Source: Geobacter sp. AOG2 (GTDB taxonomy: Bacteria; Desulfobacterota; Desulfuromonadia; Geobacterales; Pseudopelobacteraceae). Taken from it: 64,000 nucleotides of DNA. Position 1 is the first letter of the stretch, and the number at the start of each line of letters is the position of its first letter. Position numbers and translations under genes: made by a program. The notes under the pieces were generated by a model. It was given only the letters and a program-made list of their open reading frames with translations. It searched no databases and was not told the origin of the DNA. Location: contig NZ_BLJA01000001.1 in assembly GCF_019972295.1 (NCBI RefSeq), positions 3,069,574 through 3,133,573 on the forward strand, read 5' to 3'. Below are positions 18,909-64,000 of this stretch, one piece after another.

Positions 18909-19028
18909 AGGTTGTTCAAAAACAGTCAGATCGTCGCACCCGCAGAATACACCGAGGAGGCGTAGCAGCGCTACGCCGCACGAAAGGGTATTCGAGGATG
19001 GCGGCGAGATGGCTGTTTTTCAACAACC
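18909..19028 (+). repeat. Foldback element family 1, copy A
   Basis: 120 bp with ends AGGTTGTTCAAAAACAG and CTGTTTTTCAACAACC. The core is GGCGTAGC-AGC-GCTACGCC; the outer arms are AATAC / GTATT instead of the AAGCC / GGCTT type of other copies, a compensated change. It begins 4 nt past the lon stop. A CTGTTGAAAAAAC flank precedes it, as in copies C and E. Confidence 0.9.
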
Positions 19029-19031
19029 CCC

Positions 19032-21347
19032 CTACAGCGCCACGGCCACAGCCTCGGCGGCTTCGTGGATAAAGGTGAACTCCAGTTCCTTGCGCACGTT
19101 CTCGGGGATATCCTCCAGGTCATCGCGGTTGCGGTCCGGGGCGATGATCTTCCTGACACCGGCCCGGTGGGCGGCCAGCACCTTTTCCTTGAGGCCGCCG
19201 ATGGCCAGCACCCTGCCGGTCAGGGTAATCTCGCCCGTCATGGACACATTGCGCTTGGCGGGTCTGTTCGTCAGGAGCGACACCAGGGCCGTGACCATGG
19301 TCACGCCGGCGGACGGGCCATCCTTTGGGATGGCGCCCGATGGGACATGAATGTGGATGGCGCGGTTTTCGAAAGCGTCCGGGGCGATGCCGAAATCGCT
19401 GTAGTGGGCCTCCACGTAAGAGAGCGCGGCCCGGGCCGATTCCTTCATCACGTCCCCCAGGGAACCGGTCAGGATCAATTCCGGCTTGCCCGGCATGCTG
19501 GTCGCTTCCACGAACAGGATGTCGCCGCCGGTCTCGGTCCAGGCCATGCCGGTAACCACGCCGATCCGATCATCCTCGGCCGCCACCTCGTTGTGAAATT
19601 TACGCGGTCCGAGCAGTTCAGTCACCACCTCGGGGGTGATCTCCTTGCGCGGGTCCTTCTTCTGGGTGATCTCCTTGGCTATCTTACGGCAGATGGAGCC
19701 GATGGTACGTTGCAGGTTGCGTACGCCTGCCTCGCGGGTATAGTCGCTGATCACTTTCAGGATCGCCTCGTCGTGGAATTCCGGAGGGGTGTTGGTGAGG
19801 CCGTTATCCTCGATTTCGCGACGGATGATGAAGTTGCGGGCGATGTGCAGCTTTTCCTCGGTGCTGTAGCCGGCCAGGCGGATGACCTCCATGCGGTCCT
19901 TGAGCGGGCCGGGGATCGGATCGAGCTGGTTGGCGGTGGTGATGAACATGACCTTGGACAGATCAAAAGGGACATCCAGGTAATGGTCGTTGAACGAGAA
20001 GTTCTGCTCCGGGTCCAGCACCTCCAAAAGCGCTGAAGCCGGATCACCGCGGAAGTCCAGCCCCAGTTTGTCGATCTCGTCCAGCATGAAGACCGGGTTG
20101 TTGCTGCCGCAACGGAAGAGTTCCTTGATGACCCGGCCGGGCAGGGCTCCGATGTAGGTGCGGCGATGGCCGCGGATTTCGGCTTCGTCCCGTACCCCGC
20201 CCAGGGAGATGCGCACGAACTTGCGGCCAAGGGACCGGGCGATGGATTTGCCCAGGCTGGTCTTGCCCACGCCGGGGGGGCCGACGAAACAGAGCACCGG
20301 CCCTTTCATGTTCTCCCTGAGAGAGCGTACCGCCAGGAATTCCAGAATGCGTTCCTTGACCTTTTTCAGGTTGTAGTGATCCTCGTTGAGGATCTCTTCG
20401 GCCCTGACCATGTCGAGGCTGTCGGAGGAGGATTTGTTCCAGGGCATGCCGGCCAGATAGTCCAGGTAGGTGCGGGATACGGTGTACTCGGGGGAGGCCG
20501 GGTTGATCCGTTCCAGCCGTTTGAGCTCCTTGTCAGCGATCTTCTGGACCTCTTCCGGCAGGCCGGCCTCCTCGATCAGCCGTCGCAACTCGTTCATGTC
20601 CGAGGCGCGGGGGTCCTCATCCCCCAACTCCTCCTGGATGTGCTTCATCTGCTCGCGCAGAATATATTCCTTCTGATTCTTACCGACCCTGCGGGTAACC
20701 TCGCTGGAGACCTCGTTCTTGATCTGCATGCGCTGGACTTCGTTGGTCAGGTGAACGTAGACCTTTTTGAGGCGGTCCAGGGGATCGACCGTTTCCAGCA
20801 GTTCCTGCAGGTCGGCGGCCGGCAGGTTGACGTACAGCGCCACCAGGTCGGACAGGCGTGCCGGGTTGTCGATGTAGTCGATCATCTTCATGACGTCATC
20901 CGGCAACGGCTTGCCATGGGAAAGGGAGATCTTCAACAGGGCGTTCAGGCTCTGTACCAGAGCTTCGGATACCAGGCTTTTCTCCACGAACTCCCGCACC
21001 AGTTCGCAATGGGCCAGCATGACCGGAGCGGTTTGCTCGATGCTCAGGATGCGCAACCGGGCCATTCCCTCCAGGGTCACCTTGAATCTGCCGTCACCCA
21101 GTTTTTTGATCTGGTTGACCCGGCAGAGGGTCCCGATCTCGCTGATGTCCTCCATGGTGCTGTTGCCGGGGGCATCCGGGCGGAACAGCACGATCGCCAC
21201 GTATTTCTCGTAGTTGTCGGCTTCGGAGAATACCTGCAATTCGCGTTCGTCCACGTAGAGCGGGAAGATCATGTAGGGGAATGGCACCATCTCCTTCTGG
21301 GGGTAGAGTGGCAGCCTTTCAGGTATTTCAATGTTGGTATGAGGCAT
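19032..21347 (-). CDS. lon: ATP-dependent protease Lon
   Basis: 771 residues, normal for LonA. The N-terminal substrate domain starts near LPLYPQKEMVPFPYMIFPLY. An AAA+ module has Walker A GPPGVGKTSLGKS (about 355) and Walker B FMLDEIDKLG. The Ser-Lys dyad protease domain has KDGPSAGVTM (Ser about 678) and GGLKEKVLAAHRAG. It degrades misfolded and regulatory proteins. A foldback element starts 4 nt after its stop, and mlaE is next on the same strand. Confidence 0.97.
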   Translation of the reverse strand: MPHTNIEIPERLPLYPQKEMVPFPYMIFPLYVDERELQVFSEADNYEKYVAIVLFRPDAPGNSTMEDISEIGTLCRVNQIKKLGDGRFKVTLEGMARLRILSIEQTAPVMLAHCELVREFVEKSLVSEALVQSLNALLKISLSHGKPLPDDVMKMIDYIDNPARLSDLVALYVNLPAADLQELLETVDPLDRLKKVYVHLTNEVQRMQIKNEVSSEVTRRVGKNQKEYILREQMKHIQEELGDEDPRASDMNELRRLIEEAGLPEEVQKIADKELKRLERINPASPEYTVSRTYLDYLAGMPWNKSSSDSLDMVRAEEILNEDHYNLKKVKERILEFLAVRSLRENMKGPVLCFVGPPGVGKTSLGKSIARSLGRKFVRISLGGVRDEAEIRGHRRTYIGALPGRVIKELFRCGSNNPVFMLDEIDKLGLDFRGDPASALLEVLDPEQNFSFNDHYLDVPFDLSKVMFITTANQLDPIPGPLKDRMEVIRLAGYSTEEKLHIARNFIIRREIEDNGLTNTPPEFHDEAILKVISDYTREAGVRNLQRTIGSICRKIAKEITQKKDPRKEITPEVVTELLGPRKFHNEVAAEDDRIGVVTGMAWTETGGDILFVEATSMPGKPELILTGSLGDVMKESARAALSYVEAHYSDFGIAPDAFENRAIHIHVPSGAIPKDGPSAGVTMVTALVSLLTNRPAKRNVSMTGEITLTGRVLAIGGLKEKVLAAHRAGVRKIIAPDRNRDDLEDIPENVRKELEFTFIHEAAEAVAVAL

Positions 21348-21390
21348 GGAAGATGGTTCCTTGTCTGCGGGAATGATAACCGTATTTTAT

Positions 21391-21419
21391 CTTGTAACAT
21401 ATTTTGAAGGCTTATTCAA
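21391..21419 (-). promoter_or_regulatory. Candidate lon promoter
   Basis: On the minus strand TTGAAT (21419-21414) and TACAAG (21396-21391) are 17 bp apart, about 44 bp before the lon ATG. I see no CIRCE or clear sigma-32 site in the spacer. Confidence 0.45.
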
Positions 21420-21528
21420 AAATCTCAATCTAAAAACGATCAATACTGCCGGAGCGAATATTTGGTTTTAGTGATGTAAGGCTGTTATGTGAAAAGCCAC
21501 TTGCCCGCGGCGGATTTACAACAGCCCG

Positions 21529-22107
21529 CTAAACCGGCTCTCCCTCACGCACCTTGACACCCACCACGCGAACGCGGGCACCCGGTCCGGCCAGTTCCCG
21601 ATAGAGCAGGGCCAGGAAACGTACCGTCACCAGACGGTGGATGGCTGCCTGGGAAAGGCGATAGAGCAGACGGCGGAAGGTGGAGGGTGTGGGGCTGCCG
21701 AGGATCAGCGGGCAATACTCGGAGAGTTCCAGCGAGACCCGGATGCCGTCCGGCTGTTCCTTGACGCTGAAGCGCAGTTCGCCACGCCCGCATTGGCCCG
21801 GCTGCACCAGTATGCCGCCGCAGATGCGCAGCACGACGGCCTGTTGCTCGAGAACCGGCGGCAGAAAGCTGATCAGGCTCCAGCGGCTGCCGAACAAGCG
21901 GAACTGGATCTCCGAGGCCGAGCAATGGGGGCGGATGATGGTGGCGGTGCACCTTCGGATGTAGGCCAGGTAGCGTTTCAGAAGTATGTCGGGCGTGAGT
22001 TGCAGCGCAAGATGGGCCGGAAAGACACTCCACTGAATGGAGAATACCGATGAATCCTCCACCAGAACCTGCTGGCAGGCGATTTCCTGATGGCGGGGTA
22101 ATGACAT
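21529..22107 (-). CDS. Hypothetical protein
   Basis: 192 residues, AGGAG 7 nt before the ATG. I do not recognise the family. It has a mixed composition with hydrophobic C-terminal helices, no signal peptide, no clear membrane segment and no metal-binding motif; the region RPHCSASEIQFRLFGSRW and the final VRVVGVKVREGEPV stand out. It starts 3 nt after the cupin gene stop, so the two are co-transcribed. Base composition is like that of its neighbours. Confidence 0.7.
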   Translation of the reverse strand: MSLPRHQEIACQQVLVEDSSVFSIQWSVFPAHLALQLTPDILLKRYLAYIRRCTATIIRPHCSASEIQFRLFGSRWSLISFLPPVLEQQAVVLRICGGILVQPGQCGRGELRFSVKEQPDGIRVSLELSEYCPLILGSPTPSTFRRLLYRLSQAAIHRLVTVRFLALLYRELAGPGARVRVVGVKVREGEPV

Positions 22108-22110
22108 TGT

Positions 22111-22626
22111 CTAGCTCCTGGTCAGGCGCCTGATAAGCGCCTCGTGTTGCGGGAAACGTTCTGCCAGGTTGCTCCGGCTACCCATCTCGAAATCACTGAA
22201 ATCAAAGCCGGGCGACACGGTACAGCCCACCAGGGTAAAATCGCCGGAGCCGGCCACCTCGGCCCCAAACCAGCAGCCGGCCGGCGCCACGGCCTGGAAC
22301 AGTTCCCCCTTTTCCGGATCTCGGCCGAGCAGGAAGGGTCGGTGCCCGCCGTCCGGGGCGACAAGGTGCACCGTCAGGGGCGCGCCGTCGTAGAAGTGCC
22401 ACATCTCGTCTGATTTGAGGCGGTGCAGGGCCGAGAAGTCATCCCGCTCCAAAAGAAAGTGGATCGCGGTGGAAAAAGCCCGTTCACCTTGAAAACGGCT
22501 CGGCAGGCCGGCCTCGGGGATGGCCTCGGCGGCGCGATAGGTTTCGCGGAACCAACCGCCTTCGGGATGGCGGGCAAGGTGCAGTCTTTCGATCCAGTAA
22601 GCCGCGGTATGGGTGCAGATGGGCAT
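22111..22626 (-). CDS. Cupin-5 (DUF985) family protein
   Basis: 171 residues. It shows HPEGGWFRETYR near the N-terminus, STAIHFLLERDDFSALHRLKSDE (in two pieces) with WHFY, and the C-terminal GCTVSPGFDFSDFEMG, the hallmarks of the cupin_5/DUF985 family. These beta-barrel proteins are thought to bind sugars or act on small carboxylates; no activity can be assigned. It is the promoter-proximal gene of a pair with the hypothetical protein. Confidence 0.88.
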   Translation of the reverse strand: MPICTHTAAYWIERLHLARHPEGGWFRETYRAAEAIPEAGLPSRFQGERAFSTAIHFLLERDDFSALHRLKSDEMWHFYDGAPLTVHLVAPDGGHRPFLLGRDPEKGELFQAVAPAGCWFGAEVAGSGDFTLVGCTVSPGFDFSDFEMGSRSNLAERFPQHEALIRRLTRS

Positions 22627-22816
22627 GATGTGCCTCCCCCTTTGCAGGGGCTTTTAATCGTAACGAAGGTAGTTGCCCGTAGGCAACGGAAGCAGGCCTC
22701 CATGCTCCGGGCGGGGAGCGCCGTCGAATGTATCCCATTCTGCCATTGGTATGAGATATTGCAATCATTTTTAGGATATGGCACCTTTTGCAGACCTTTA
22801 TCGGGAGGTTGCAGGG

Positions 22817-24379
22817 ATGCCCCACAAACCACGCCTGTTCGCTGTCGGCGATATCAACGCCTTTTTCGGTCTCATGCTGGACAATGTGTCCGGCCTGGTC
22901 ATCATGGCCGCCATTCTTACCGGCGCTTTTGGCATGCCGCGCGAGATCGTACTGTACCGCATGTTGCCCGGCAGCGCCATGGGGGTGTTGGTGGGCGACC
23001 TGCTGTACTCCTGGATGGCTTGGCGCCTGGCCAGACGCACCGGACGGACGGATGTGACCGCCATGCCATTGGGGTTGGATACCCCTTCCACCTTCGGCCT
23101 GGCCTTCGGCGTGATCGGCCCCTGTTACCTGGCGAGCAAGGATGCCTATTTCACCTGGCAGGTGGCCATGGGGGTCATCATCCTGATGGGGGTCTTCAAG
23201 ATCGCCGTTTCCTTTTGCGGGCCGGCCCTGCGTCGTGCCGTCCCGCGGGCCGCCCTCTTGGGGAGCATTGCTGCAGTGGCGCTGCTCCTGATCGCCTACC
23301 TGCCGTTTCTTAAGCTCTTCGCCTCGCCGGTGGTCGGCTTCCTCTCCCTGGGTATCGTTTTTATTTCGCTTCTGGCCCGTTTCCGGCTCCCTCTGGGGAT
23401 GCCGGGCGCATTGGCCGGCATGCTGTGCGGCACCGTCGCCTATTACCTGCTGTCCGCCTTCGATCTGTTACCCGGCGCAGGACATGCCGTGTTCCGGCCA
23501 TTCGAGGTGTCCTTGCATCTGCCGCTGCCGACCCTGGAATTCGTGCCCGGCCTGACGAAAGCCCTGGCTTATCTGCCGCTGGCGATCCCCTTTGCCCTGG
23601 CTACGGTGGTCGGCGGCGTGGATGTCACCGAAAGCGCGGCCGTGGCCGGCGACGATTACAACACCCGCGATGTCCTCCTGGTGGAGGGGTTTGCCACCCT
23701 GGTGGCCGGCATATGCGGCGGCGTGATCCAATCCTGTCCCTACATCGGCCATCCGGCCTACAAGGAGATGGGGGGGCGGTCCGGCTACACCATCGCCACG
23801 GCCCTGTTCATAGGCCTGGGGGGGATGCTCGGCTATCTCTCGTTCTTCGTCAATCTTCTGCCCGAGGCCGCGGTGGCGCCGATCCTGATTTTCATCGGGA
23901 TCGAAATCACCGCACAGGCCTTTGAAGCCACCCCCCACAAGCATTACCGGGCCATTGCCATCTCCTTTGTCCCGGCAATCGCCTGTCTGGTGTCGATCCA
24001 GTTCGGCCAGATGCTGGGCGGACTGGGCAAGAGCAGCGCCGACCTCTCGGGAGAATTGCTGGCAACCTACAATGCCACGACCCTTCTGGGGAACGGCTTC
24101 ATTGTCACGTCACTGCTCTGGGGCGCAGCCTTTTCCCATGTCCTCGACCACCGGCCGGGGCGGGCGGCGCTCTATCTCCTGATCTGCGCCCTGTTTTCCC
24201 TGTGCGGGGTGATCCACTCTCCGCTCCCTTCGGGGGCGCTCTTTTCGCCACTGTCGCCCCCGACGCCGATTGTCTGGCATCTGGCAGCCGGTTATGCCGT
24301 GATGGCGTTAGCCTTCGCGCTGCTGGAACGGGGACGAAGGTCACCCCCCTTGCCATCCGGTGAAGTTGTGGCACAATAA
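22817..24379 (+). CDS. NCS2-like membrane permease (xanthine/uracil or related)
   Basis: 520 residues from the ATG at 22817, which has GGGAGG 8 nt upstream; an in-frame ATG 13 codons earlier does not. About 12 to 13 hydrophobic segments are visible. NAFFGLMLDNVSGLVIMAAI, PLGLDTPSTFGLAFGVIGP, and GGVDVTESAAVAGDDYNTRDVL with GVIQSCPYIGHPAYK match the purine/pyrimidine permease family in layout. The loop with VTESA..GDDYNTR would be the substrate site. The substrate is uncertain: nucleobases are likely, but other anions are possible. Confidence 0.8.
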   Translation: MPHKPRLFAVGDINAFFGLMLDNVSGLVIMAAILTGAFGMPREIVLYRMLPGSAMGVLVGDLLYSWMAWRLARRTGRTDVTAMPLGLDTPSTFGLAFGVIGPCYLASKDAYFTWQVAMGVIILMGVFKIAVSFCGPALRRAVPRAALLGSIAAVALLLIAYLPFLKLFASPVVGFLSLGIVFISLLARFRLPLGMPGALAGMLCGTVAYYLLSAFDLLPGAGHAVFRPFEVSLHLPLPTLEFVPGLTKALAYLPLAIPFALATVVGGVDVTESAAVAGDDYNTRDVLLVEGFATLVAGICGGVIQSCPYIGHPAYKEMGGRSGYTIATALFIGLGGMLGYLSFFVNLLPEAAVAPILIFIGIEITAQAFEATPHKHYRAIAISFVPAIACLVSIQFGQMLGGLGKSSADLSGELLATYNATTLLGNGFIVTSLLWGAAFSHVLDHRPGRAALYLLICALFSLCGVIHSPLPSGALFSPLSPPTPIVWHLAAGYAVMALAFALLERGRRSPPLPSGEVVAQ

Positions 24380-24386
24380 CCTTCTC

Positions 24387-25292
24387 ATGGCCAGGAAGAA
24401 AAACGTCATCCTCATTACCGGTGCGACCGGGTTCATCGGCCGTCGGCTTGTCAAGGAGCTGCTGGCTCAGGGGCTCAACGTGCGCTGCATGGTACGGGGG
24501 GCGGGCACGGGAATTCCCGGGGCCGCCGAGGTCGTGCGGGCCGATATGCTGGTGCCGTCGTCACTGGCACGGGCTCTGGAAGGGGTCGACAGCGTCTATT
24601 ACCTGGTGCACTCCATGGCGGGCGGCCGAGCCGGTTTCGAACAGCGCGACCGGGAAGCGGCGGGTAATTTGGTGCGGGCTGCCGAAAAGGCCGGTGTGCG
24701 GCGGGTGATCTATCTGGGCGGGTTGGGGGAAACCGGCGATAACCTGTCGGAACACCTCAAGAGCCGGCGGGAGGTAGCCGGGATCCTCACCTCCGGGCAT
24801 TTTGCCACGACCGTTCTGCGGGCCGCCGTAATCATCGGGGCGGGCGGCGCCTCATTCGAAATGGTCCGGGCCCTGGTGGAACGCTTGCCGGTGATGATTA
24901 CCCCGCGGTGGGTTTCGACCCGCTGTCAGCCCATCGCCGTGGACGACGTGATCGCCTACCTGACCGGCTGTCTGGCGGATGAACGCACTGCAGGAAGGAT
25001 CTTCGACATCGGCGGCCCCGAGGTACTGACCTACCGGGAGATGATGGAGCGTTTTGCCCGCATTGAGGGGAAAACCCTCCATATCCTGCCGGTGCCGGTG
25101 TTGACCCCCAAGCTTTCGTCCTACTGGGTCGGACTGATTACGCCGGTGCGGCCGTCGGTTTCCATGCCGCTCATCGAAGGGCTGAGCAACGAGGTGGTCT
25201 GCCGCGAACACGCCATTCGCGAACTGATTCCACTGCGGCTCACCCCCTACGACGAGGCGGTACGCCGGGCGTTGGCCGGAACCGGGCCGTAA
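24387..25292 (+). CDS. NAD(P)-binding SDR-like protein (YbjT/NmrA type)
   Basis: 301 residues from ATG 24387, 7 nt after the permease stop; the in-frame GTG at 24360 is an alternative. The Rossmann motif ITGATGFIGRRLVKELLAQG is at the N-terminus, followed by VYYLVHSMAGG, YLGGLGE, and LRAAVIIGAGGASFE. The classical YxxxK is absent (HLKSRREV), as in atypical SDR proteins of the YbjT/SDR_a5 group, which sense or use NAD(P)H. Translational coupling suggests co-expression with the permease. Confidence 0.85.
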   Translation: MARKKNVILITGATGFIGRRLVKELLAQGLNVRCMVRGAGTGIPGAAEVVRADMLVPSSLARALEGVDSVYYLVHSMAGGRAGFEQRDREAAGNLVRAAEKAGVRRVIYLGGLGETGDNLSEHLKSRREVAGILTSGHFATTVLRAAVIIGAGGASFEMVRALVERLPVMITPRWVSTRCQPIAVDDVIAYLTGCLADERTAGRIFDIGGPEVLTYREMMERFARIEGKTLHILPVPVLTPKLSSYWVGLITPVRPSVSMPLIEGLSNEVVCREHAIRELIPLRLTPYDEAVRRALAGTGP

Positions 25293-25410
25293 GGGTAGCC
25301 TCCCGCAGGACAGGAGTGTTCGTCTTCTCCGGGCTTGCGGCGGCATGCCGGATATATCGGTATCAGCCGCTCAAACCATCGAAACCATAATCAAAGAAGG
25401 AGGAAGGACT

Positions 25411-26064
25411 ATGAAAAAGATCGGCGTGGTGCTTTCGGGCTGCGGTGTGCGGGATGGCAGCGAGATTCATGAGGCGGTCTTTGCGCTTTTGGCCATTGAC
25501 CGGAACGGGGCCGAGGCGGTCTGCATGGCGCCCAATGCCGATTTTCCCGAAACCAATCACCTGACCATGCAGGAAACGGGAAACAAGCGTAATGCACTGG
25601 TTGAAGCCGCCCGTATTGCCCGGGGCAACATCCGCGACATCGCGGAGGTAAAGGCGGCCGACCTGGATGCCGTTGTCTTTCCCGGCGGATTCGGTGCTGT
25701 CAAGAATCTGTGCGATTTTGCCGCCAAGGGGGCCGGCGCCGCGGTGCATCCCGAGGTGGCCCGCCTGCTCAGGGAGATGTCGGCGGCCGGCAAGCCTATC
25801 GGCGCCATCTGCATTGCCCCGGCTGTCGTGGCGACGGTACTGGGCAAAGATAAAGGGCCGACCCTGACCATCGGCAACGATCCGAGCACGGCGGCGGAGA
25901 TAGAAAAGACCGGCGCCAGGCATCAGGAGTGCCCGGTCACCGAATTCGTCGTGGACCGCACGAACAAAATCGTTTCCACCCCGGCCTACATGCTGGCGCA
26001 CCGTATCTCCGAAGCGTACCAGGGGATCGACAAATGCGTGAAGGAAGTGATTGCATTGATTTGA
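25411..26064 (+). CDS. elbB: ElbB-like glyoxalase (DJ-1/PfpI family)
   Basis: 217 residues from the ATG preceded by AGGAGGAA. It begins KIGVVLSGCGVRDGSEIHE and contains FPGGFGAVKNLCDFA and PIGAICIAPAV, in which the nucleophilic Cys lies at the strand-helix elbow (AICIAP), with the ElbB-specific extra insert. ElbB (SCRP-27A) has glyoxalase III-like activity in E. coli; a role in detoxifying dicarbonyls or in isoprenoid synthesis has been suggested. It stands alone, followed by a strong stem-loop. Confidence 0.92.
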   Translation: MKKIGVVLSGCGVRDGSEIHEAVFALLAIDRNGAEAVCMAPNADFPETNHLTMQETGNKRNALVEAARIARGNIRDIAEVKAADLDAVVFPGGFGAVKNLCDFAAKGAGAAVHPEVARLLREMSAAGKPIGAICIAPAVVATVLGKDKGPTLTIGNDPSTAAEIEKTGARHQECPVTEFVVDRTNKIVSTPAYMLAHRISEAYQGIDKCVKEVIALI

Positions 26065-26117
26065 TGATGTGATATGTTTTTCTTCCTCTGAAACAGCCGG
26101 GTGTACGATTTGCCGCA

Positions 26118-26159
26118 CCGAAAAGAAGGCACGGGGTAATCTTCGTGCCTTCTTTTCGG
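26118..26159 (+). terminator. Terminator after elbB
   Basis: A perfect 16-bp stem (CCGAAAAGAAGGCACG and its complement) has a 10-nt loop; the T-rich strand is part of the stem. It lies 54 nt past elbB and 30 nt before the M48 gene. Confidence 0.75.
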
Positions 26160-26188
26160 CCTGAAAACCCAAAAAGGGAAATGTCCTG

Positions 26189-27457: not shown

Positions 27458-27507
27458 TGCAACAGGTGCAAGGATTTATCGGTCGTTGACGATCCGTAAA
27501 AAAAATC

Positions 27508-27560
27508 TTGACAGGGCGGGTTCGGAACCCTATTCTGAATGAGTGATCATTCAGAATAGG
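27508..27560 (+). promoter_or_regulatory. Promoter and palindromic operator of the TetR gene
   Basis: TTGACA (27508-27513) and TATTCT (27531-27536) are 17 bp apart. The palindrome CCTATTCTGAATGA-GTGA-TCATTCAGAATAGG (27529-27560) has perfect 14-bp arms and covers the -10 and transcription start. It is the expected autorepression site. Its core GAATGA-N4-TCATTC recurs upstream of the efflux operon. Confidence 0.9.
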
Positions 27561-27569
27561 AGACAATGA

Positions 27570-28139: not shown

Positions 28140-28182
28140 GCTGGATTCGCCGTAGGAGTAAGTTTTTTTTGAGTTGAGTTAA

Positions 28183-28198
28183 GAATGACTGTTCATTC
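28183..28198 (+). promoter_or_regulatory. Second TetR operator, upstream of the RND operon
   Basis: GAATGA-CTGT-TCATTC repeats the inner core of the operator at 27529-27560. It lies 78 bp before the membrane-fusion gene, overlapping the likely promoter region (TTGAGT at 28169-28174). This ties the regulator to the pump. Confidence 0.8.
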
Positions 28199-28275
28199 GT
28201 AATTTTAAATAGATAGCTCGATAAGGGCCGGTCCGCGGTCGGGCCGGAAATTCATCAGACAACATAGAGGTGGTT

Positions 28276-42151: not shown

Positions 42152-42272
42152 AGGTTGTTGAAAAACAGCCATCTCGCCGCCATCCTCGAAAGCCCTTTCG
42201 TGCGGCGTAGCGCTGCTACGCCTCCTCAGGGCCTTCTGCGGGTGCGACGATCTGACTATTTTTGAACAACCT
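42152..42272 (-). repeat. Foldback element family 1, copy B
   Basis: 121 bp, reversed relative to copy A: starts AGGTTGTTGAAAAACAG and ends CTATTTTTGAACAACCT. The core is GGCGTAGC-GCT-GCTACGCC with outer arms AAAGCCCT / AGGGCCTT. It lies between the HAD and ferritin-like genes. Confidence 0.92.
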
Positions 42273-42284
42273 GGGGTTTTAGCG

Positions 42285-42307
42285 GGTTGTTGAAAAACAG
42301 CCATCAG
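42285..42307 (-). repeat. Truncated end of a second family 1 element
   Basis: GGGTTGTTGAAAAACAGCCA repeats the left end of copy B, then diverges. It is 13 bp beyond copy B and 27 bp past the HAD stop, so it looks like a partial duplicate or remnant. Confidence 0.75.
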
Positions 42308-42333
42308 GCCTTCGTCCTTGCAAACCCCTTGTA

Positions 42334-50355: not shown

Positions 50356-50489
50356 GTTTGCAGGCGGATATGATAGCCGGGCCCCACGCAACGGCACGCC
50401 GTGAACTCCGCCAGGTCCGGAAGGAAGCAACGGCAGCGGCTCCCGTCGTGTGCCGTGGGTAAGCCCGGCTATCATATCCGCCTGCAAAC
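50356..50489 (+). ncRNA. ffs: Small bacterial signal recognition particle RNA
   Basis: The conserved SRP domain IV is present: CCAGGTCCGGAAGGAAGCA at 50412-50430, with the GGAA tetraloop and asymmetric loop that bind Ffh. The arms on each side (CGGCAC with GTGCCG, CCCAC with GTGGG) continue the long hairpin. A perfect 26-bp inverted repeat (50356-50381 and 50464-50489) closes it, making about 134 nt. It targets inner-membrane proteins to FtsY. A promoter lies upstream and dnaX is downstream, a common arrangement. Confidence 0.95.
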
Positions 50490-52301: not shown

Positions 52302-52348
52302 CGACCCTGCGACATATAACCAGGTTTTAGCAGTCTGTTGAATAACTC

Positions 52349-52470
52349 AGGTTGTTCAAAAATAGTCAGATCGTCGCACCCGCAGGGAGCCCCTTGTGCG
52401 GCGTAGCAGGGCTACGCCGCACAAGGGGGCTTTCGAGGACGGCGGCGAGATGGCTGTTTTTCAACAACCT
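52349..52470 (+). repeat. Foldback element family 1, copy C
   Basis: 122 bp, same orientation as copy A. The inner part is a nearly perfect 20-bp palindrome (AGCCCCTTGTGCGGCGTAGC with its complement, loop AGG), longer than in other copies. A TCTGTTGAATAACTC flank precedes it. It lies between dnaX and ybaB. Confidence 0.92.
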
Positions 52471-53667: not shown

Positions 53668-53788
53668 AGGTTGTTGAAAAACAGCCATATCGCCGCCGTC
53701 CTCGAAAGCCCCTTCGTGCGGCGTAGCGCTGCTACGCCTCCTCGGGGCTTCCTGCGGGTGCGACGATCTGACTGTTTTTGAACAACCT
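53668..53788 (-). repeat. Foldback element family 1, copy D
   Basis: 121 bp, orientation as copy B. It begins AGGTTGTTGAAAAACAG 2 nt past the recR stop and ends CTGTTTTTGAACAACCT. The arms are AAAGCCCC / GGGGCTTC with core GGCGTAGC-GCT-GCTACGCC. Its right end contains TTGAAC, 16 bp before TATAGA, a possible promoter for nifJ. Confidence 0.92.
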
Positions 53789-53857: not shown

Positions 53858-57430
<3,573 letters not shown>

Positions 57431-57457
57431 CCGTCGGAACCAGGTCGTTTCATAACG

Positions 57458-57487
57458 AAGGCCCCGTGGCATACACGGGGCCTTTTT
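57458..57487 (+). terminator. Rho-independent terminator of nifJ
   Basis: AAGGCCCCGTG pairs with CACGGGGCCTT around a 5-nt loop, followed by a T-run. Confidence 0.9.
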
Positions 57488-57561
57488 CCTTTTTCCGGCG
57501 TCGGCGACCTGCTATAGTGCTGCCACGAGGGCATTGATGATCAGTTATTCGGCGAGGGATC

Positions 57562-58440
57562 ATGAAGAAGATATTCATAGCCGGTTGCGGCTACATAGGC
57601 AGGCGTGTCGCCCGTTTGGCGAGCGATGCGGGATATGGGACGACCTGCCTGGTCAGGTCGGCGGAGCAGGGCACCGCTTTGGAGAAGGACGGCTTCGGGA
57701 CAGTCGTGGGTTCCCTGGACGACGCGGCGGGGATGCCGTCGCTGGAAGGGGCGGCCGGAGGGGCGGTGCTGTACTGCGTACCGCCACCGGGCGGTGGGCT
57801 GTTCGACACCCGGGCCAGGAACTTCTGCGCCGCCTTGGCTCTATCTGCGCCGCCTGCGAAGATCGTCTACCTGAGCGCCACCTCGGTCTATAGCGAGACC
57901 CGCGGCGGTACGGTAACGGAAGATTCCCCCACCGCACCGGCATCGTCCATGGGCAAGCGGCGTCTCGATGCCGAAGCAGCCTTCCGGGAGTTCGGAGCGG
58001 CCCACGGCGCGGGGGTGGTGATCCTGCGCATCAGCGGTATTTACGGCCCCGGCCGCCTGCCCCTGATGCAGATCAGCCAGGGACAGCCGCTTCTCAAGGA
58101 AGAGGAGTCCGGGCCAAGTAACCGCATCCACGCCGACGATCTGGCGCAGATTTGCCTTGCGGCGGTTGAAAAGGGAAAGGACGGTGACATCTTCAACGTC
58201 AGCGACGGCCATCCCGCCAGTATGACCAGTTACTTCAACGCCGCCGCCGATGTCCTGGGCATGCCCCGCCAGCCCCAGGTGCCCCTGGAGGAGGCGCGCC
58301 AGACCATGTCCCCCCTGATGTTCTCCTACGTGAGCGAGTCGCGGGTGGTGGACAATTCCCGCATGCTGGAGAGGTTGGGCGTCAGGTTGCGTTACCCCTC
58401 CATGGTCCAGGGGCTGTCTGCCTCGGTCGAGGTGGCATGA
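57562..58440 (+). CDS. NAD(P)-dependent SDR/epimerase-like protein (YeeZ type)
   Basis: 292 residues. KKIFIAGCGYIGRRVARLA is a Rossmann motif with the GCGYIG variant seen in the YeeZ-like atypical SDR group. YLSATSVYSET, a Tyr-rich segment, and RISGIYGPGRLPL follow. The substrate is unknown. The start is preceded by GAGGGAT. The stop overlaps the next gene by 4 nt (ATGA), so it is translationally coupled to a DNA-repair-like glycosylase. Confidence 0.88.
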   Translation: MKKIFIAGCGYIGRRVARLASDAGYGTTCLVRSAEQGTALEKDGFGTVVGSLDDAAGMPSLEGAAGGAVLYCVPPPGGGLFDTRARNFCAALALSAPPAKIVYLSATSVYSETRGGTVTEDSPTAPASSMGKRRLDAEAAFREFGAAHGAGVVILRISGIYGPGRLPLMQISQGQPLLKEEESGPSNRIHADDLAQICLAAVEKGKDGDIFNVSDGHPASMTSYFNAAADVLGMPRQPQVPLEEARQTMSPLMFSYVSESRVVDNSRMLERLGVRLRYPSMVQGLSASVEVA

Positions 58441-59135
58441 GCGGCCCGGCCACGGTACACCTCAGCGTCACCGGAGAACGGCTCCGGGCCGTCTTTGCCC
58501 GCCTGCTGGAGCACTACGGCCCACGTTTCTGGTGGCCGGCCGAAACCCCCTTCGAGGTCTGCATCGGGGCGATCCTGACCCAGAACACCGCCTGGACCAA
58601 TGTGGAAAAGGCCATCGGAGCCCTGAAGGCAGCCAACGTGCTGACCATCGAGGGGATTGAGGACATTCAGGCTGGTCGTCTGGCGGAGTTGATCCGTCCA
58701 TCCGGCTACTACAACGTCAAGAGCGTCAGGATCAAAGGGTTTGTGGGGTGGCTCCGGGAGCGTCACAACGGCTCGCTGGACGCCATGTTCAACGGGGAGT
58801 GGCGCGAGTTGCGCACGGAGTTGCTGAAGGTGCCCGGCATCGGCCCGGAAACCTGCGATGCGATCATGCTGTACGCCGGGAACAAGCCGACCTTTGTGGT
58901 CGATGCCTACACCCGGCGCCTGTTCCACCGCCTGGGCCTGCTACCGGCCGATGCGGGCTACGACGAGACCCGCCGACTGTTCATGGAGCACCTGCCCGGC
59001 GATGCCCAGCTGTTCAACGAATACCACGCCCTGATCGTGGAACAGTGCAAGATTTTCTGCCGTACCCGGCCGTTGTGCGACGGCTGCCCCCTGGCGCTGC
59101 AATGCCCCGTCTTCCATTCCGGCTGCAATCCGTAA
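58437..59135 (+). CDS. Endonuclease III-like HhH-GPD glycosylase (COG2231/MagIII type)
   Basis: 232 residues. The helix-hairpin-helix is LLKVPGIGPETCDAIMLYAG and the catalytic Asp is in FVVDAYTRR. Where EndoIII has the catalytic Lys (GRKTAN) this protein has GPETCD, as in Helicobacter MagIII, which removes alkylated adenine without lyase action. ILTQNTAWTNVEKA is also typical. The C-terminal cysteines (CRTRPLCDGCPLALQC) suggest a 4Fe-4S cluster, with spacing C-x5-C-x2-C-x5-C rather than the EndoIII C-x6. Confidence 0.88.
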   Translation: MSGPATVHLSVTGERLRAVFARLLEHYGPRFWWPAETPFEVCIGAILTQNTAWTNVEKAIGALKAANVLTIEGIEDIQAGRLAELIRPSGYYNVKSVRIKGFVGWLRERHNGSLDAMFNGEWRELRTELLKVPGIGPETCDAIMLYAGNKPTFVVDAYTRRLFHRLGLLPADAGYDETRRLFMEHLPGDAQLFNEYHALIVEQCKIFCRTRPLCDGCPLALQCPVFHSGCNP

Positions 59136-59202
59136 CCCCGACCAATTAACTAGGCTTTTCAGCTCTTTGTGTATGAAACCAAAATGTTAGGCCCGTTCCT
59201 GC

Positions 59203-59231
59203 TTGCCAGGGTATAAGCTGTCTGGTAGAAT
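59203..59231 (+). promoter_or_regulatory. Intergenic promoter for a possible small RNA
   Basis: TTGCCA (59203-59208) and TAGAAT (59226-59231) are exactly 17 bp apart. No gene on this strand follows, only two hairpins and a terminator. Confidence 0.65.
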
Positions 59232-59237
59232 AAAGAT

Positions 59238-59316
59238 ACAGAAAACATTGCGAGGGTTCCCTAAGAACCCTCATTTGCCCTGGCGACTTTCCCTCCTAGT
59301 TGCCGGGGTGTTTTTT
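59238..59316 (+). ncRNA. Candidate intergenic small RNA
   Basis: About 79 nt from the start expected for the promoter at 59203-59231. It contains hairpin GAGGGTT-CCCTAAG-AACCCTC (59252-59272) and a terminator stem CCCTGGCGAC / GTTGCCGGGG (59278-59308, two G-U pairs) followed by TGTTTTTT. No ORF longer than a few codons starts inside, and the next gene is on the other strand. The family is unknown. The rest of 59318-59453 shows nothing clear. Confidence 0.5.
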
Positions 59317-59453
59317 GCCGGCCGCTTAGAATTCCACCCACGCAGCAGAGAGCCACGGCTGAAAAACGGGACAAAGCAGCGCGCCCCTCCGTTCGGATTG
59401 ATTGTCGTTTATCCACTTCATCACGGCTTGAACGGTTTTTAGGTGAACTGTAG

Positions 59454-60326
59454 TCAGTCCGCAGTTGCCTGAGGGCAGACCCCGGCAATGGCGCAGTTCA
59501 GGCAGCGCAAGGGATCGTTGCCGGTGCATCCTTCACTGATGCCCAGGTGGGCCAGGGAAAAGTCGTATTTGACCGGGTCCGCGGGATCGAATGACCGCAG
59601 GCCGTCGGTGATTTCCCGGGCCATGCGCCAATCGGCGTTCTTCCTGTGGGTAAAGCCAAGGTAGGAGCAGATACGGCTGATGTGGGTGTCCACCGGGATG
59701 ACCAGTTGGGCGGGTGAAACCCCCTGCCAGAGTCCCAGGTCGATGCCGTCGGCCGGACGCACCACCCAGCGCAGGAACATGCAGAGGCGTTTGCAGGCGC
59801 TGCCCGAGGCGGGTGCGGGGAAGAGAAAGGAGAAGTAGGAGCCGGCGGGGATGTCAGCCTTCCCGAAGACCGGCCGGTAATCCAGGCCTCGTACCGCAGC
59901 CGTATAGCCGTCCAGGGCGGCTGTCACGTCCTCGGCCCCGCTGTCGTGGAAACGCACGAAGAAGCCGTTGACGCTGCCCGCGTCCTCGATCATCAGCCGG
60001 CAGGCCCACAGGAGGGCGCACAGGTCGCGGCCGTCATTGAAGCGGTGTTTGAAGCCGCTGAAGGTCCGTAATCCCTTCTTGGCATCGAATCGCTCCACGA
60101 ACCGGCGCGGCGACGGTCCCAGCTCGGTGAAGATCCGTTCCAGGGTGCGCAGGATGATCTTGATGCCGCCGTAGGCGAAGGCAGAGGCGATGACGGCCGC
60201 CACCTCCCGGTCGGCCGGCTCCCGGTAGCGGTGGCAGAAAGAGAGCGGATCGTTGGCCAGATGGGCGGCGGAACGGGTTGCGTACAGGGCGTCAAGGACG
60301 GTTTTCAGGTCGTTTTTTTTGGGCAT
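59454..60326 (-). CDS. TIGR02757 family protein (DUF2400)
   Basis: 290 residues, the family's usual length. It has DPLSFCHRYREPADREVAAV near the N-terminus, AFAYGGIKIILRTLERIF, WVVRPADGIDLGLW, and VIPVDTHISRICSYLG, which resembles the HhH-GPD catalytic segment with its Asp. The C-terminal GCTGNDPLRCLNCAIAGVC has four Cys that could hold an iron-sulphur cluster. A DNA glycosylase-like role has been suggested; none is proven as far as I know. Confidence 0.9.
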   Translation of the reverse strand: MPKKNDLKTVLDALYATRSAAHLANDPLSFCHRYREPADREVAAVIASAFAYGGIKIILRTLERIFTELGPSPRRFVERFDAKKGLRTFSGFKHRFNDGRDLCALLWACRLMIEDAGSVNGFFVRFHDSGAEDVTAALDGYTAAVRGLDYRPVFGKADIPAGSYFSFLFPAPASGSACKRLCMFLRWVVRPADGIDLGLWQGVSPAQLVIPVDTHISRICSYLGFTHRKNADWRMAREITDGLRSFDPADPVKYDFSLAHLGISEGCTGNDPLRCLNCAIAGVCPQATAD

Positions 60327-60354
60327 TGAGTCTCGGCAGTCTGTTGAAAAGTTC

Positions 60355-60474
60355 AGGTTGTTCAGAAATAGTCAGATCGTCGCACCCGCAAAAAGCCCCG
60401 CGGAGGCGTAGCAGCGCTACGCCGCACAAGAAGGCTTTTGAGGACGCGGCGAGATGGCTGTTTTTCAACAACCT
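60355..60474 (+). repeat. Foldback element family 1, copy E
   Basis: 120 bp, orientation as copies A and C. Arms AAAGCC / GGCTTT, core GGCGTAGC-AGC-GCTACGCC. Preceded by CAGTCTGTTGAAAAGTTC as in copy C. Its other end lies 4 nt past the galT stop. Confidence 0.92.
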
Positions 60475-60477
60475 GTT

Positions 60478-61503
60478 TCATACCTCCGCTTCCCGCAGGA
60501 AGCTTGCCGCATCCTCCGGCGAGGTCGGATTGATGTAGAAGCCGGTACCCCATTCGAAGCCCGCCACCTGGGTCAGGCGCGGCACCAACTCGATATGCCA
60601 GTGATAGTCCTGCTCCAGCGAGTTCCAGTGGGTCGGCTTGCCGGGTCGCCTATGCATGGGGGGCGCGGTGTGGAGGATGAAGTTGTAGGGCGCATCGCGC
60701 AGCACGTTCTTGACCCTGAGCAGCATGTCCTTCATGGCCACGGCCAGTTCGGCCAGTTGGGCATCGTTCATCAGGGCAAAGTCGTGGCTGTGGCGCTTGG
60801 GATAGAGCCGAACTTCAAAGGGCGAACTGGAGGCGTAGGGGGCCAGGGTGACGAAGTTGGAGAATTCCCGCACCACCCGCTCGCCGCATTTCAGCTCGAA
60901 ATCAATAATGTCGCAAAAGATGCAACGCTCCTTGGTGTTGAAATAGTTGCGGGCCACCTTGAGCTGGGTTGCGGCCACCGGCGGCAGAAGCGGTACGGCG
61001 ATCAACTGGCTGTGGGAGTGGTGCAGGGTTGCCCCGGCCCGGAGCCCGTGATTCTTGAAGAGCACCATGTAGCGGAAGCGGAAATCCCTGCGCAGGTCCA
61101 GATAACGTGCCCGGTAGGCGGTCAGGACGTCGGTGATCTCGTGGGCGGTGAGATCGGCCAGGCTGCGGTTGTGGTCGGGGGTTTCAATGATGACCTCGTG
61201 GGCGCCGATGCCGTTCATCACGTCGTACAGTCCGTAGCCGCGGTTGTTCAGCTCCCCTTCCACCCGTAGCGCCGGGTATTTGTTGGGGATTACTCTCACC
61301 CGCCAGTTGGCGGCGTTGGGCATGCCACTGGGGCGGATAGCGAATATCTCGGGCGGCGTCTTGTCCTCATTGCCGTAACAGAAGGGGCAGGCGGTCATGC
61401 CGTCCCCCTCCGGCTCGACTTGGAAATCCCGCGGCCGCCGGCCACGCTCGGTGGCGATGATAACCCAGTGCAGCTTTATGGGGTCCCAGCGAAGTTCTGA
61501 CAT
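60478..61503 (-). CDS. galT: Galactose-1-phosphate uridylyltransferase-like protein
   Basis: 341 residues. It begins ELRWDPIKLHWVIIATERG and has zinc-site cysteines CPFC and the active site GATLHHSHSQLIA, HSHxQ in place of the usual HPHxQ. The second half has KERCIFCDI and HWHIELVPRL. It would exchange UMP between UDP-glucose and galactose-1-P; the HSH form may use other hexose phosphates. AAGGAG lies upstream. It lies next to a GH57 enzyme, so a role in glycogen or sugar-nucleotide turnover is likely. Confidence 0.88.
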   Translation of the reverse strand: MSELRWDPIKLHWVIIATERGRRPRDFQVEPEGDGMTACPFCYGNEDKTPPEIFAIRPSGMPNAANWRVRVIPNKYPALRVEGELNNRGYGLYDVMNGIGAHEVIIETPDHNRSLADLTAHEITDVLTAYRARYLDLRRDFRFRYMVLFKNHGLRAGATLHHSHSQLIAVPLLPPVAATQLKVARNYFNTKERCIFCDIIDFELKCGERVVREFSNFVTLAPYASSSPFEVRLYPKRHSHDFALMNDAQLAELAVAMKDMLLRVKNVLRDAPYNFILHTAPPMHRRPGKPTHWNSLEQDYHWHIELVPRLTQVAGFEWGTGFYINPTSPEDAASFLREAEV

Positions 61504-61578
61504 GGTAAGCTCCTTGATACGCGTATCGTATAAATTCCACCAAAGTGGCCCCGAAGGTCACACTGTCTGCCACGTTCA

Positions 61579-61697
61579 GCAACGTCAGATTTGAGATGAT
61601 GAGGGTGGCGGCGAGGAGGAGGCGCCGGAGGCATAGCAGCGCTATGCCGACAAGCTTCCGACGAGCCAACGCCCTCAGCGCTCAAATATGGCGTTGC
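61579..61697. repeat. Foldback element family 2
   Basis: 119 bp with imperfect 17-bp inverted ends: GCAACGTCAGATTTGAG and CTCAAATATGGCGTTGC, 2 mismatches. The core is GGCATAGC-AGC-GCTATGCC, the same 8-bp stem and AGC loop layout as family 1. It ends 3 nt past the GH57 stop. Only one copy is in the window. Confidence 0.8.
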
Positions 61698-61699
61698 GG

Positions 61700-63889
61700 C
61701 TATATGAGCCAGTTGTCCAGCTCGATCTCCGGCCCCGCATAATACAACATCAAAGGCGCATCCGTCGGCCAGCGGCCGATCTCTTCATTGTCGCGCACCA
61801 GGGTCACCGAAGCGAACAGTTTGCTTTTGGAGGCAAGCTTGATGGCCTCCAGCGGGATGCAGACCTCGCAGGTCTTGGCGATCTTCCAACGGCAATGGCC
61901 GCTGGTCGGAACCCAGGCGTTGTTTTCCCGGACCTGTAAAAGCCCCTCGTCGGTGCGCATCTGCAGGGGCAGCCGGTATTCCCGGTCATAGATGAGGTGC
62001 AGGTTGAGCACGTCGATCTCCCGCAACATCCGGGAAAGCTCCTGAATGCCGTCGATGCGGAAGAAGAGATGGCTCTTGTTATAACCGTAGTAGAAGCTTT
62101 GCAGCATGCGGTCCGAGGAGTGCATGGCCGAACCCTGGCGGGTCAGGTCGTAGAGGCCGGCGGCCAGCCATTCGAAGTAGTCGCTGATCCTGCCGTTGAT
62201 CTCGGGATCGATGAAGCCGGCCGGTTCCCGGATCAATCCGGCCGGACTCTTCTTCTTGATCGCTTCCAGCAGTGCGCGCGGCGTGTCGATGCCCAGCAGC
62301 CGGTAGACGTTCATCAGGTGCTGGCGGAAAAGCCGGTCGAAGCGGTCGCTGTGGGGCGAAAAATGGTCGTCGCCGTACCACCAGAACCAGTCGCTCCCCT
62401 CGGCGGCATACAGCGAACGGCAGATCGTCTCCACATCGGCATCCGCTGCGACGGTGCCGCTTGCCAGGGCCTCGGCCACGGCCGGGCTGTGGGAGACGGC
62501 GGCGTCCCGTGTTGCGGCCAAGAGGTCCCAAGCCAGGTTCTCCTCCGGGTGCCCGATCCAGATACCGTAATTGGCGTTGATCCATGAACCGGGGTGGATG
62601 CCGTGCAGCCGCCCGTCAAAGGTGCTGCGGGCCAGGACGTCGGAGCAGAGGGTCAGGTTGAGGGAGGGTGAGTCGGCAATGCCGCGGTACAAGCCCTGCA
62701 AAAAGTCGTAGGCGTTGTTTGGGTAATACTCCCAGGCGTTCTCGCCGTCCAGGCAGATCGGGATCACCTTTCCCTCGCCGCCGCTACGCCCCTTGATGGC
62801 GTGCAGCCGTCCGCAGAAATCCGCCACGGCCCGGCTTGCATCCCATTGGGAGTAGGTGAAGCCAACCAGGTCGGAGAGTTGGTGGTCGCGGAAAAAGGCG
62901 CCGATCTCCCCCTGTCGGCAGACGAAGCGCCAGGGACGGTAGAGACGCTCCTTATGATCCCCCAGGCCCCCCTCAAGGCTTTTGACCAGAATGTCTTCAT
63001 CCGTCGCGATCCAGCCGATGCCGCTTTCGGCGATGATCTCCAGCGTCTCGTTGCTGACCGAACCTTCCGACGGCCACATGCCGGTGGGGGTGAAACCGAA
63101 GACCTGCTCGAAATAGTCGATACCGCGCCGGATCTGGGCGCGGGCATCTTCAGGGTGGCGGAAAACAGCCGTGGGCAGCGTGACCCGCGGCATGGCGGTC
63201 TGGGCGCTACGGGTGTCGCACAGAAGCGGCAGGATGGGATGGTAGTAGGGGGAGACGGCCAACTCAACGCGCCCCTCCTGATGCAGGCGCTTGTAGCACG
63301 GGATGATGGCCTGCAACAGTTCCCGCTGCGTGGCAAAGAGCAGTGCCTTGTCCGCGGCGGTGAATTCCTCCCCTTTGGCCGCCAGTTCGGCAAAGACCGG
63401 ATAGCGCCTGCGGGAAGCCTCTCCGGTCCAGGCCAGGAAGAACAAAACCTGGAGGTCCAGCAGATCCTGGTCGTTGAAGTGCCGTACCCGGTCACGGGCG
63501 CTGCCCGGTTTCCCCTCGCCGGCCATGTAGAGCAGTTCCAGGTAGCGGCGTGACGGTTCGATCATGCGCTGCCGGTTGGCGGAAAAGAAATTCTCCAACA
63601 GGAAGATGCGATCAGCCTCCGCCAGATCGGCCGGAGAAGCCTTGCCTTTTTCCAGGAAGGGGTCAACGGCGGTGCCGGAGGCGTAATCCAGGATCTGCTC
63701 TATCAGGGACGGGACCAGGTTGAAGACCGCCTTTGCGCCCGGAGTGTCTTCCACGATCGCCGGCATGTCGAAATAATCCTTGATGCCGTGGAGGTAGGTC
63801 CAGGGGAGCTCATACTCGTTCTTGAGCGGGTCCCTGTAGTACGGCTGGTGCATGTGCCATAGTATGACCACATCGAGCGGGGTCGGCAT
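61700..63889 (-). CDS. GH57 glycoside hydrolase (alpha-amylase-like)
   Basis: 729 residues. DVVILWHMHQPYYRDP at the N-terminus is the GH57 hallmark; the catalytic Glu is in GMWPSEGSVS (about 270) and a downstream acid region lies in WFWWYGDDHFSPHSDRFD. A C-terminal beta domain follows (about 600-729). Members cleave or transfer alpha-1,4-glucan; this length and neighbourhood fit a cytoplasmic glycogen-related amylase. GGAG lies 10 nt before the ATG. It is upstream of galT on the same strand. Confidence 0.93.
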   Translation of the reverse strand: MPTPLDVVILWHMHQPYYRDPLKNEYELPWTYLHGIKDYFDMPAIVEDTPGAKAVFNLVPSLIEQILDYASGTAVDPFLEKGKASPADLAEADRIFLLENFFSANRQRMIEPSRRYLELLYMAGEGKPGSARDRVRHFNDQDLLDLQVLFFLAWTGEASRRRYPVFAELAAKGEEFTAADKALLFATQRELLQAIIPCYKRLHQEGRVELAVSPYYHPILPLLCDTRSAQTAMPRVTLPTAVFRHPEDARAQIRRGIDYFEQVFGFTPTGMWPSEGSVSNETLEIIAESGIGWIATDEDILVKSLEGGLGDHKERLYRPWRFVCRQGEIGAFFRDHQLSDLVGFTYSQWDASRAVADFCGRLHAIKGRSGGEGKVIPICLDGENAWEYYPNNAYDFLQGLYRGIADSPSLNLTLCSDVLARSTFDGRLHGIHPGSWINANYGIWIGHPEENLAWDLLAATRDAAVSHSPAVAEALASGTVAADADVETICRSLYAAEGSDWFWWYGDDHFSPHSDRFDRLFRQHLMNVYRLLGIDTPRALLEAIKKKSPAGLIREPAGFIDPEINGRISDYFEWLAAGLYDLTRQGSAMHSSDRMLQSFYYGYNKSHLFFRIDGIQELSRMLREIDVLNLHLIYDREYRLPLQMRTDEGLLQVRENNAWVPTSGHCRWKIAKTCEVCIPLEAIKLASKSKLFASVTLVRDNEEIGRWPTDAPLMLYYAGPEIELDNWLI

Positions 63890-63914
63890 CTCAGGCGGCT
63901 CCTTGTCTCTTATG

Positions 63915-64000
63915 AGGTTGTTGAAAAACAGCCATCTCGCCGCCGTCCTCGAAAACCCCTTGTGCGGCGTAGCGCTGCTACGCCTCCGCGGGGCTTTTCT
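63915..64000 (-). repeat. Foldback element family 1, copy F (cut by window end)
   Basis: Starts AGGTTGTTGAAAAACAG as in copies B and D, with arms AAAACCCC / GGGGCTTTT and core GGCGTAGC-GCT-GCTACGCC. It lies 26 bp upstream of the GH57 start. Confidence 0.9.

Follow-up and report, generated by a model that had tools for sequence, protein, structure and literature searches.

A probable IS5-type MITE with a conserved long hairpin in Geobacter sp. AOG2, and solitary forms of the hairpin in related genomes

Introduction

In 2009, 24 'predicted short RNA elements' were reported in Geobacter metallireducens (PMC2700814, legend of Additional file 4), and the palindrome given in that legend, GRCGTAGCGCTGCTACGCC, is in reverse complement the core of the repeated foldback element treated here, which was found in a window of 64,000 nt of the genome of Geobacter sp. 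AOG2 (G000; 3,921,258 bp, single contig). The closest named match to the 1190-aa gene of the window, at 86 percent, comes from an uncultured Geobacter. Like this element, those of G. metallireducens have a central palindrome and are intergenic, one of them lying between dapAB and dapL; they were described as RNA elements of unknown function, and the passages and legends on them make no mention of their ends, of a target duplication, of mobility or of stem covariation. A literature search by string, run on a limited set of papers exclusive of their supplements, found the core in PMC2700814 only and the end strings in none of them. The element is thus partly identical to a known one, its palindrome having been known since 2009 as a short RNA family (PMC2700814). 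In our reading, the element is probably a miniature inverted-repeat transposable element (MITE) of IS5 type, of about 140 bp, which carries a conserved hairpin and of which some copies have been retained; this kind of MITE is in itself already known, and it is the structured core that would be conserved and retained.

Several other described systems can be compared with it. The Chunjie element of Geobacter uraniireducens (Chen 2008; PMC10969869) is, by description only, a similar Geobacter MITE, with size variation, a mostly intergenic location and partial copies, but it is 235 bp at full length. The ERIC and Correia elements (PMC2229807), compared by architecture, resemble the element in being small and intergenic with inverted ends, long stem-loops and a TA-terminal target duplication; they occur in other hosts, and the duplication seen here is of 4 bp around TA. 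REPINs, which are associated with RAYT transposases, are likewise hairpins with compensatory changes and many copies (PMC3116915), while the present element has no adjacent RAYT, shows a 4-bp duplication, and has its conserved parts in the internal loops and the apical stem. By analogy, ERIC, Correia and REPINs would be the closest in behaviour. The MRSC-65-2 motif is, in the same line, a single long covarying stem with dozens of copies per genome, but has a conserved UYCCGG repeat and is a different motif (PMC11109978); the main text of that paper names no MRSC-61, the number 61 being only assumed here to stand for its Geobacter genome. Finally, IS5 transposons (NCBIfam NF033581) share with the element CAGGYTGTTGAA-type ends and a 4-bp duplication around TA, YTAR being the sequence that IS5 is reported to duplicate (PMC10359306), but they are 1.3 kb long with a transposase, none was found in the host, and YTAR is duplicated by only some of those inspected.

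A dispersed repeat with a four-base target duplication

A sequence-only reading of the window had claimed six copies of the foldback element and suggested a mobile, non-autonomous repeat. A 19-base tag of the element, TCAGATCGTCGCACCCGCA, has five matches in the window, where shuffles give an expectation of 0.05, and is found at 123 places genome-wide (at most two mismatches; none for the reversed control), so that the family is not limited to a few copies; the copy number in the genome is 123-125. In the stretches drawn around the listed tag matches, both ends could be paired in 123 cases, four of these being one element called on both strands, which leaves 119 copies. The spacing between the inner repeats is exactly 121 bp in 71 of the 123 paired copies, and the full element measures about 140 bp, too short to hold a transposase. 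The 121-nt consensus gave no match in plasmid and phage collections.

Longer modular forms also exist, with an 80-bp block near the left end and another near the right end, and further variants comprise a CCCTC-rich apical insert, an alternative right arm and short forms of 66 bp. The 80-bp block (TATAAT...CGGTGACGRAGCG...GCTAA), seen near either end of longer copies (L009, L011, L017, L024 and others), may be a separate repeat in its own right, and the CCCTC-rich insert, which replaces part of the core loop in L009, L011, L021, L030 and L044, is possibly the 'class 4' CCYTC repeat of PMC2700814. In addition, short elements at L191 (near 2927752), L192, L193 and L194 of the host genome have the same terminal repeats with unrelated or deleted interiors, one of them standing between CTAT and CTAT; these are possibly further MITEs of the same transposon type.

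As to the ends, the 17-bp repeats previously taken for the termini do exist, but they are inner repeats, and the insertion extends past the left one by about 18 bp and past the right one by 1 bp. More precisely, outside the left inner repeat lies a block of weak conservation, CAGGCTGTTGAAAAACTC, with TTAA-like bases before it, and on the right side a single base beyond the inner repeat is followed by CTAG-like bases. The terminal inverted repeats are imperfect (CAGGCTGTTGAAAAAC on the left, SAGGTTGTTGAAAAACAG on the right), and the outer left end is decayed in many copies. In 22 of the 119 copies, the tetramer of the right flank is found again 12-24 bp to the left of the inner end (shuffled mean 7.9, maximum 17, 500 shuffles), and three other tetramer offsets show no comparable excess (10, 6 and 8 against shuffled values of 6.7, 5.9 and 6.0). 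In a base-by-base test on the 39 of 119 copies in which TA could be placed at both ends, excess identity was limited to the bases directly before and after TA (p 0.0006 and 0.001) and was gone one base outward. Because the excess stops at the bases flanking TA, the duplication is read as one of 4 bp, NTAN and mostly YTAR.

The copies of the window, four of which served for the comparison of insertion sites between species, are the following (lengths are those between the inner repeats).

18909..19029, + strand: copy A, 121 bp; its right end adjoins the stop codon of lon (19032-21347, - strand)
42152..42272, - strand: copy B, 121 bp
42284..42332, - strand: partial copy, a right-end fragment adjoining copy B (repeat family D2, pair I13)
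52331..52348, + strand: outer left end of copy C, CAGTCTGTTGAATAACTC, within the insertion and preceded by the target TTAG at 52327-52330
52349..52470, + strand: copy C, 122 bp, downstream of dnaX
53668..53788, - strand: copy D, immediately after the recR stop codon
60355..60474, + strand: copy E, 120 bp; its right end adjoins the galT stop codon
61573..61702, + strand: copy G, diverged and solitary, with its own lower stem and an altered core stem (GGCATAGC/GCTATGCC); its right end is on the stop codon of the gene at 61700-63889 (- strand)
63915..64000, - strand: copy F, cut by the end of the window and whole in stretch L058

All six copies of the earlier count, A to F, are therefore present where they had been placed, and the partial copy next to copy B and the diverged seventh copy G are to be added to them. 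Also present as described are the AATAC/GTATT arm of copy A, the palindrome of copy C, which is nearly perfect, and the GGCGTAGC core.

Insertion sites were compared for copies C, D, E and F in five congeners (G049-G053). The site of copy C is empty in all five, the congeners reading like TTTTAGACG where the window has TTTTAG, element C and CTAGACG. At the site of copy D, no copy is present in G051 and G053, and copies with other interiors stand in G049, G050 and G052. The site of copy E, compared in G051 and G053, has no copy in these two, the left flank being poorly aligned. At the site of copy F, a copy in the opposite orientation lies between TTAG and TTAG in G049, which suggests repeated insertion at one site; G050 and G052 have a copy with an apical insert, and G051 and G053 have no copy and another, partly self-complementary sequence.

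Apical inserts or orientation hence vary between species at the sites of copy D (L195, L198, L199) and copy F (L205, L206, L207), a variation that reflects either module exchange or repeated insertion. Different sequence is also found at the site of copy G (L303 in G056, L304 in G054) and at that of copy F (L208 in G053, L209 in G051), and what replaces the copies in those genomes is partly an unrelated long inverted repeat.

A candidate mover among IS5-type transposons

The host genome contains no match to PF01609 or NF033581, so that the earlier statement that the window holds no transposase is upheld for these two, to which the scan was limited. An autonomous partner was not seen in the host either, the 73 end-like matches (at most one mismatch) including, by eye, no convergent pair 1-2.5 kb apart. 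In relatives, PF01609 matches occur in 9 of 16 genomes. Two such loci in G054 encode IS5-type transposases scoring over the NF033581 cut-off, one transposon having ends CAGGTCGTTGAA and CAGGTTGTTGAA between TTAG and TTAG, and the second having CAGGTCTTTGAAAAAC on both sides and ATAT flanks. Across the family, NF033581 is over its cut-off in 10 of 76 genomes, the host not being among them; of 11 loci inspected by eye, 10 show paired CAGGYYKTTGAA-like ends with at most two mismatches, about 1.32-1.35 kb apart, and the eleventh is cut by its contig. An identical 4-bp flank was seen by eye in 8 of the 10 transposons with paired ends (three YTAR, one GTAA, four ATAT), and the outer 12 bp of the MITE, CAGGCTGTTGAA, are identical to L238. 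At L252, L255 and L266 the end scan also gave pairs, each with 2+2 mismatches, which were taken as chance.

Taken together, the copy number, the duplication of the target, the empty sites and the existence of IS5-type transposons whose ends match support the mobile, non-autonomous repeat, and the element is best read, as far as sequence can tell, as an IS5-type MITE that would be an orphan in the host genome. The search for a mover with the same ends, suggested along with it, had a divided outcome, the IS5-type transposons of relatives sharing the ends and neither of the two Y1 (RAYT-type) loci of the host carrying the element.

The hairpin and its covariation

The copies of the window fold as one long hairpin, with a stability well outside what chance would give (z -5.5 to -11.4; five copies, two of them folded on both strands). 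Pairing of the arms was tested at nine positions in the 91 of 123 copies that could be parsed, against 5000 shuffles: positions 4, 5 and 9 lie above all 5000 and the other six do not, and all outer six arm positions are paired in 57 of the 91 copies (shuffled mean 37.8, maximum 48). The compensating arm changes noticed in the sequence-only reading are thereby borne out at positions 4, 5 and 9, while the palindrome of copy C looks like a single templated replacement and not like compensation in steps, which speaks in part against that reading. In copies C and L048, the left arm is indeed rewritten as the complement of the right arm, internal loop included, and five forms of 157-159 bp share that rewritten left arm (7 of 119 copies in total). 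As rewritten arms point to templated change, covariation within a single genome is insufficient.

A further alignment (A1) combines twelve solitary copies from other genomes with eight MITE copies. With RNAalifold, A1 gives 39 pairs, 30 of which are changed on both sides; 93.5 percent of its cells are paired against 73.5 when shuffled, and covariation is strong, with a score of 0.586 (0.210 when shuffled, 0.14-0.20 when slid), the structure having been derived from A1 itself, which favours it over the slid versions. The upper stem is nearly invariant, the internal loops are conserved across the family, and the lower stems are locus-specific.

At the Rfam gathering score, no family matched the element in the window or at five other loci, the best weak match being MIR4374 (15.7 bits, at copy D), and no intrinsic terminator was found in copy D. 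Elsewhere in the window, gathering scores were reached at 50375-50473 and 59224-59315 (Small SRP RNA and atoC RNA motif).

Spread across the class and old solitary copies

Within the family, the tag has a patchy distribution (23 of 76 genomes), and the 121-nt consensus has matches in 45 of the 76; in the matches from other genera, the upper stem and internal-loop motifs are retained, several of these matches having different lower stems. A model derived from A1 matches in 104 of 141 genomes of the order (among the best 24 matches scored per genome) and in 191 of 277 genomes and 63 of 82 genera of the class (best 12), counted at E <=0.001 with rough E-values; the class-level counts are model scores, a minority of the underlying sequences having been inspected. 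At E <=1, no match was obtained in 727 kb covering 71 loci of other phyla or classes. Among nine loci that the same gene search gave for nearer relatives, the model matches one, L081 of the Desulfuromonadaceae, its copy being placed where a gene named, by eye, dnaX-like ends.

Copy G has full orthologs in four of the five congeners, while in G051 the middle part has been lost; in two genomes of another genus the site is taken by other sequence, a different hairpin in one of them. Between the window and the four orthologs, 38 of 44 pairs are invariant, four show double changes, two are changed on one side and none is broken. The selection for structure proposed earlier finds here its most direct support, every variable pair still pairing in orthologs that are without transposon ends. 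Three further pairs of copies were judged orthologous from their neighbours (L177/L179, L175/L180 and L185/L186); L185/L186 shows six one-sided changes, one pair broken by changes and one unpaired in both, and the two others are weighed below.

Gene ends and the strand that folds

With open frames of at least 80 codons used as gene calls, a crude measure, the right duplication is exactly a stop codon in 46 of the 119 copies and the left one in 14, and other YTAR sites of the same stretches are a stop codon in 194 of 1150 cases. The frequent landing on stop codons can be understood from YTAR itself, which contains TAA or TAG on both strands. In other genomes, 18 copies were examined and a right-hand gene was called for 17: in 14 of these 17 (12 of 14 among solitary copies) it is directed at the element, with its end -7 to +5 bp away; 11 of these 14 loci have a co-directional left gene, in seven of them within 50 bp. 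Examples are kdpA-kdpB and thl-hbd (named by eye).

Defining the plus strand as the + strand of copies A, C and E, it is the more stable one in 116 of the 119 own copies and, with RNA as well as DNA parameters, in all 17 copies of other genomes so compared, namely fifteen solitary ones (the twelve A1 rows, L286, L287 and L081), L170, which is 88 percent identical to the MITE consensus, and L291:61-189. Part of this difference may be inherited with the conserved motifs. Besides, when copy G is folded as plus, G.U states occur in five of the variable pairs and A.C states in none; the fold of the other strand has six columns with A.C and one with G.U. The fold under constraint thus appears to be that of one strand; since the right-hand genes run towards the element, at solitary loci the better-folding strand is in most cases the one opposite to the upstream gene's message.

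Proposed explanation and alternatives

In the reading that we prefer, an IS5-family transposase acting in trans would recognise the ends CAGGYTGTTGAAAAAC, and insertion would occur at NTAN, mostly YTAR, with a 4-bp duplication, as the ends, the duplications and the empty sites suggest. Many such insertions fall exactly on stop codons through the TAA or TAG in YTAR, a preference for which the above counts give statistical evidence. The cargo is one long hairpin, of which the nearly invariant upper stem and conserved internal loops can be seen directly. Some copies would persist for long, their outer ends losing transposon sequence while compensatory changes keep the pairing, as orthologous sites show, and the solitary copies would derive from MITEs in this way. 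The hairpin would finally act at gene ends as a structured nucleic acid, either a plus-strand RNA or a single-stranded DNA hairpin; this is the most plausible role among those considered, and nevertheless a tentative one. As tentative is the wider proposal of a class-wide, unnamed structured nucleic acid, seeded on stop codons by transposition and kept by selection opposite to the upstream message, the MITE being its dispersal form and the solitary copy its domesticated form.

Several observations weigh against this explanation. On the side of mobility, the left TA is doubtfully placed in several of the 39 copies, an exact duplication is kept in only about a fifth of copies, and no IS5-type transposase was found in the host genome, so that current mobility is unproven; moreover, only 3 of the 8 identical flanks of the IS5-type transposons are YTAR, and the four ATAT, being self-complementary, could belong to the ends. 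On the side of structure, L177/L179 shows three double changes, four one-sided and three broken pairs, and L175/L180 four, four and seven, respectively. As regards the strand, A1 folded as minus still has more GU than AC (59:35), the test being partly circular in A1 as the pairs were predicted on the plus strand; in the own copies, the excess of G.T over A.C is significant when counted by cells (59:30) but not when counted by types (24:14), and the substitution test shows a lean in that direction at unpaired positions as well. Finally, the MITE copies between co-directional genes, counted from the 119 after omission of five inside a frame and three at a stretch edge, are unbiased in orientation (34:36), which disfavours a cis-acting RNA.

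This last count also bears on the view, which we hold rather unlikely, that the element is a co-transcribed intercistronic hairpin altering the stability or processing of operon messages in the manner of ERIC and Correia. Right-hand genes ending at the element in 14 of 17 loci, left genes co-directional in 11 of 14, and the known co-transcription of ERIC with its effect on message stability (PMC2229807) all agree with such an mRNA hairpin, but the better-folding strand is antisense at these loci, the MITE copies lack an orientation bias, and no U-rich terminator tail was seen by eye in the solitary forms looked at.

Somewhat improbable, too, is a small plus-strand RNA for which the MITE form would be the mode of dispersal. 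It would account for the plus-strand stability, and a sigma-70-like site, TTGAAA-17-AATAGT, is present at the left end of copy E and fits the MITE consensus by eye; this single promoter-like match compares, however, with an expectation of 0.5 for that stretch, transcription from the predicted start would remove the lower left stem, and solitary copies are without the outer left end.

It is unlikely that the hairpin has no function at all, its arms being kept complementary by template switching of quasi-palindromes and the rest by shared ancestry. The one-step templated left arms of C, L048 and the five 157-159 bp forms illustrate such a process, yet template switching would erase internal loops, which are nearly invariant across the family, and the variable pairs of copy G pass through G.U and not A.C on the plus strand.

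A 4-bp duplication at both ends is not expected from Y1 transposition. A REPIN-like element, mobilised in single-stranded form by a RAYT (Y1) transposase, would account for the folding of one strand and for compensatory changes with no function for the host, and is held to be very unlikely: the host does have two Y1 genes, stability is strand-specific and compensatory changes are also common in REPINs (PMC3116915), but the element shows that duplication and ends matching IS5-type transposons, solitary copies with altered ends keep the fold, and the two Y1 loci (L075 and L076, about 3.3 kb each) have no model match (E <=1), tag, core or end, so that RAYT was rejected as the mover. The Y1 gene of L075 (G000 144079) is, by eye, flanked by an inverted repeat of its own, GGGTCAGGTCTACATTC.

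Significance

The IS5-type MITE reading connects the 'short RNA elements' listed without explanation in 2009 with a hairpin carried by a transposon, and provides many natural copies, old and young, for testing a repeated hairpin at gene ends. A fold kept after the loss of transposon ends offers a direct test case for the domestication of bacterial MITEs and, if it is the antisense strand that does the work, an account in terms of mRNA stability, as is usually given, would not hold.

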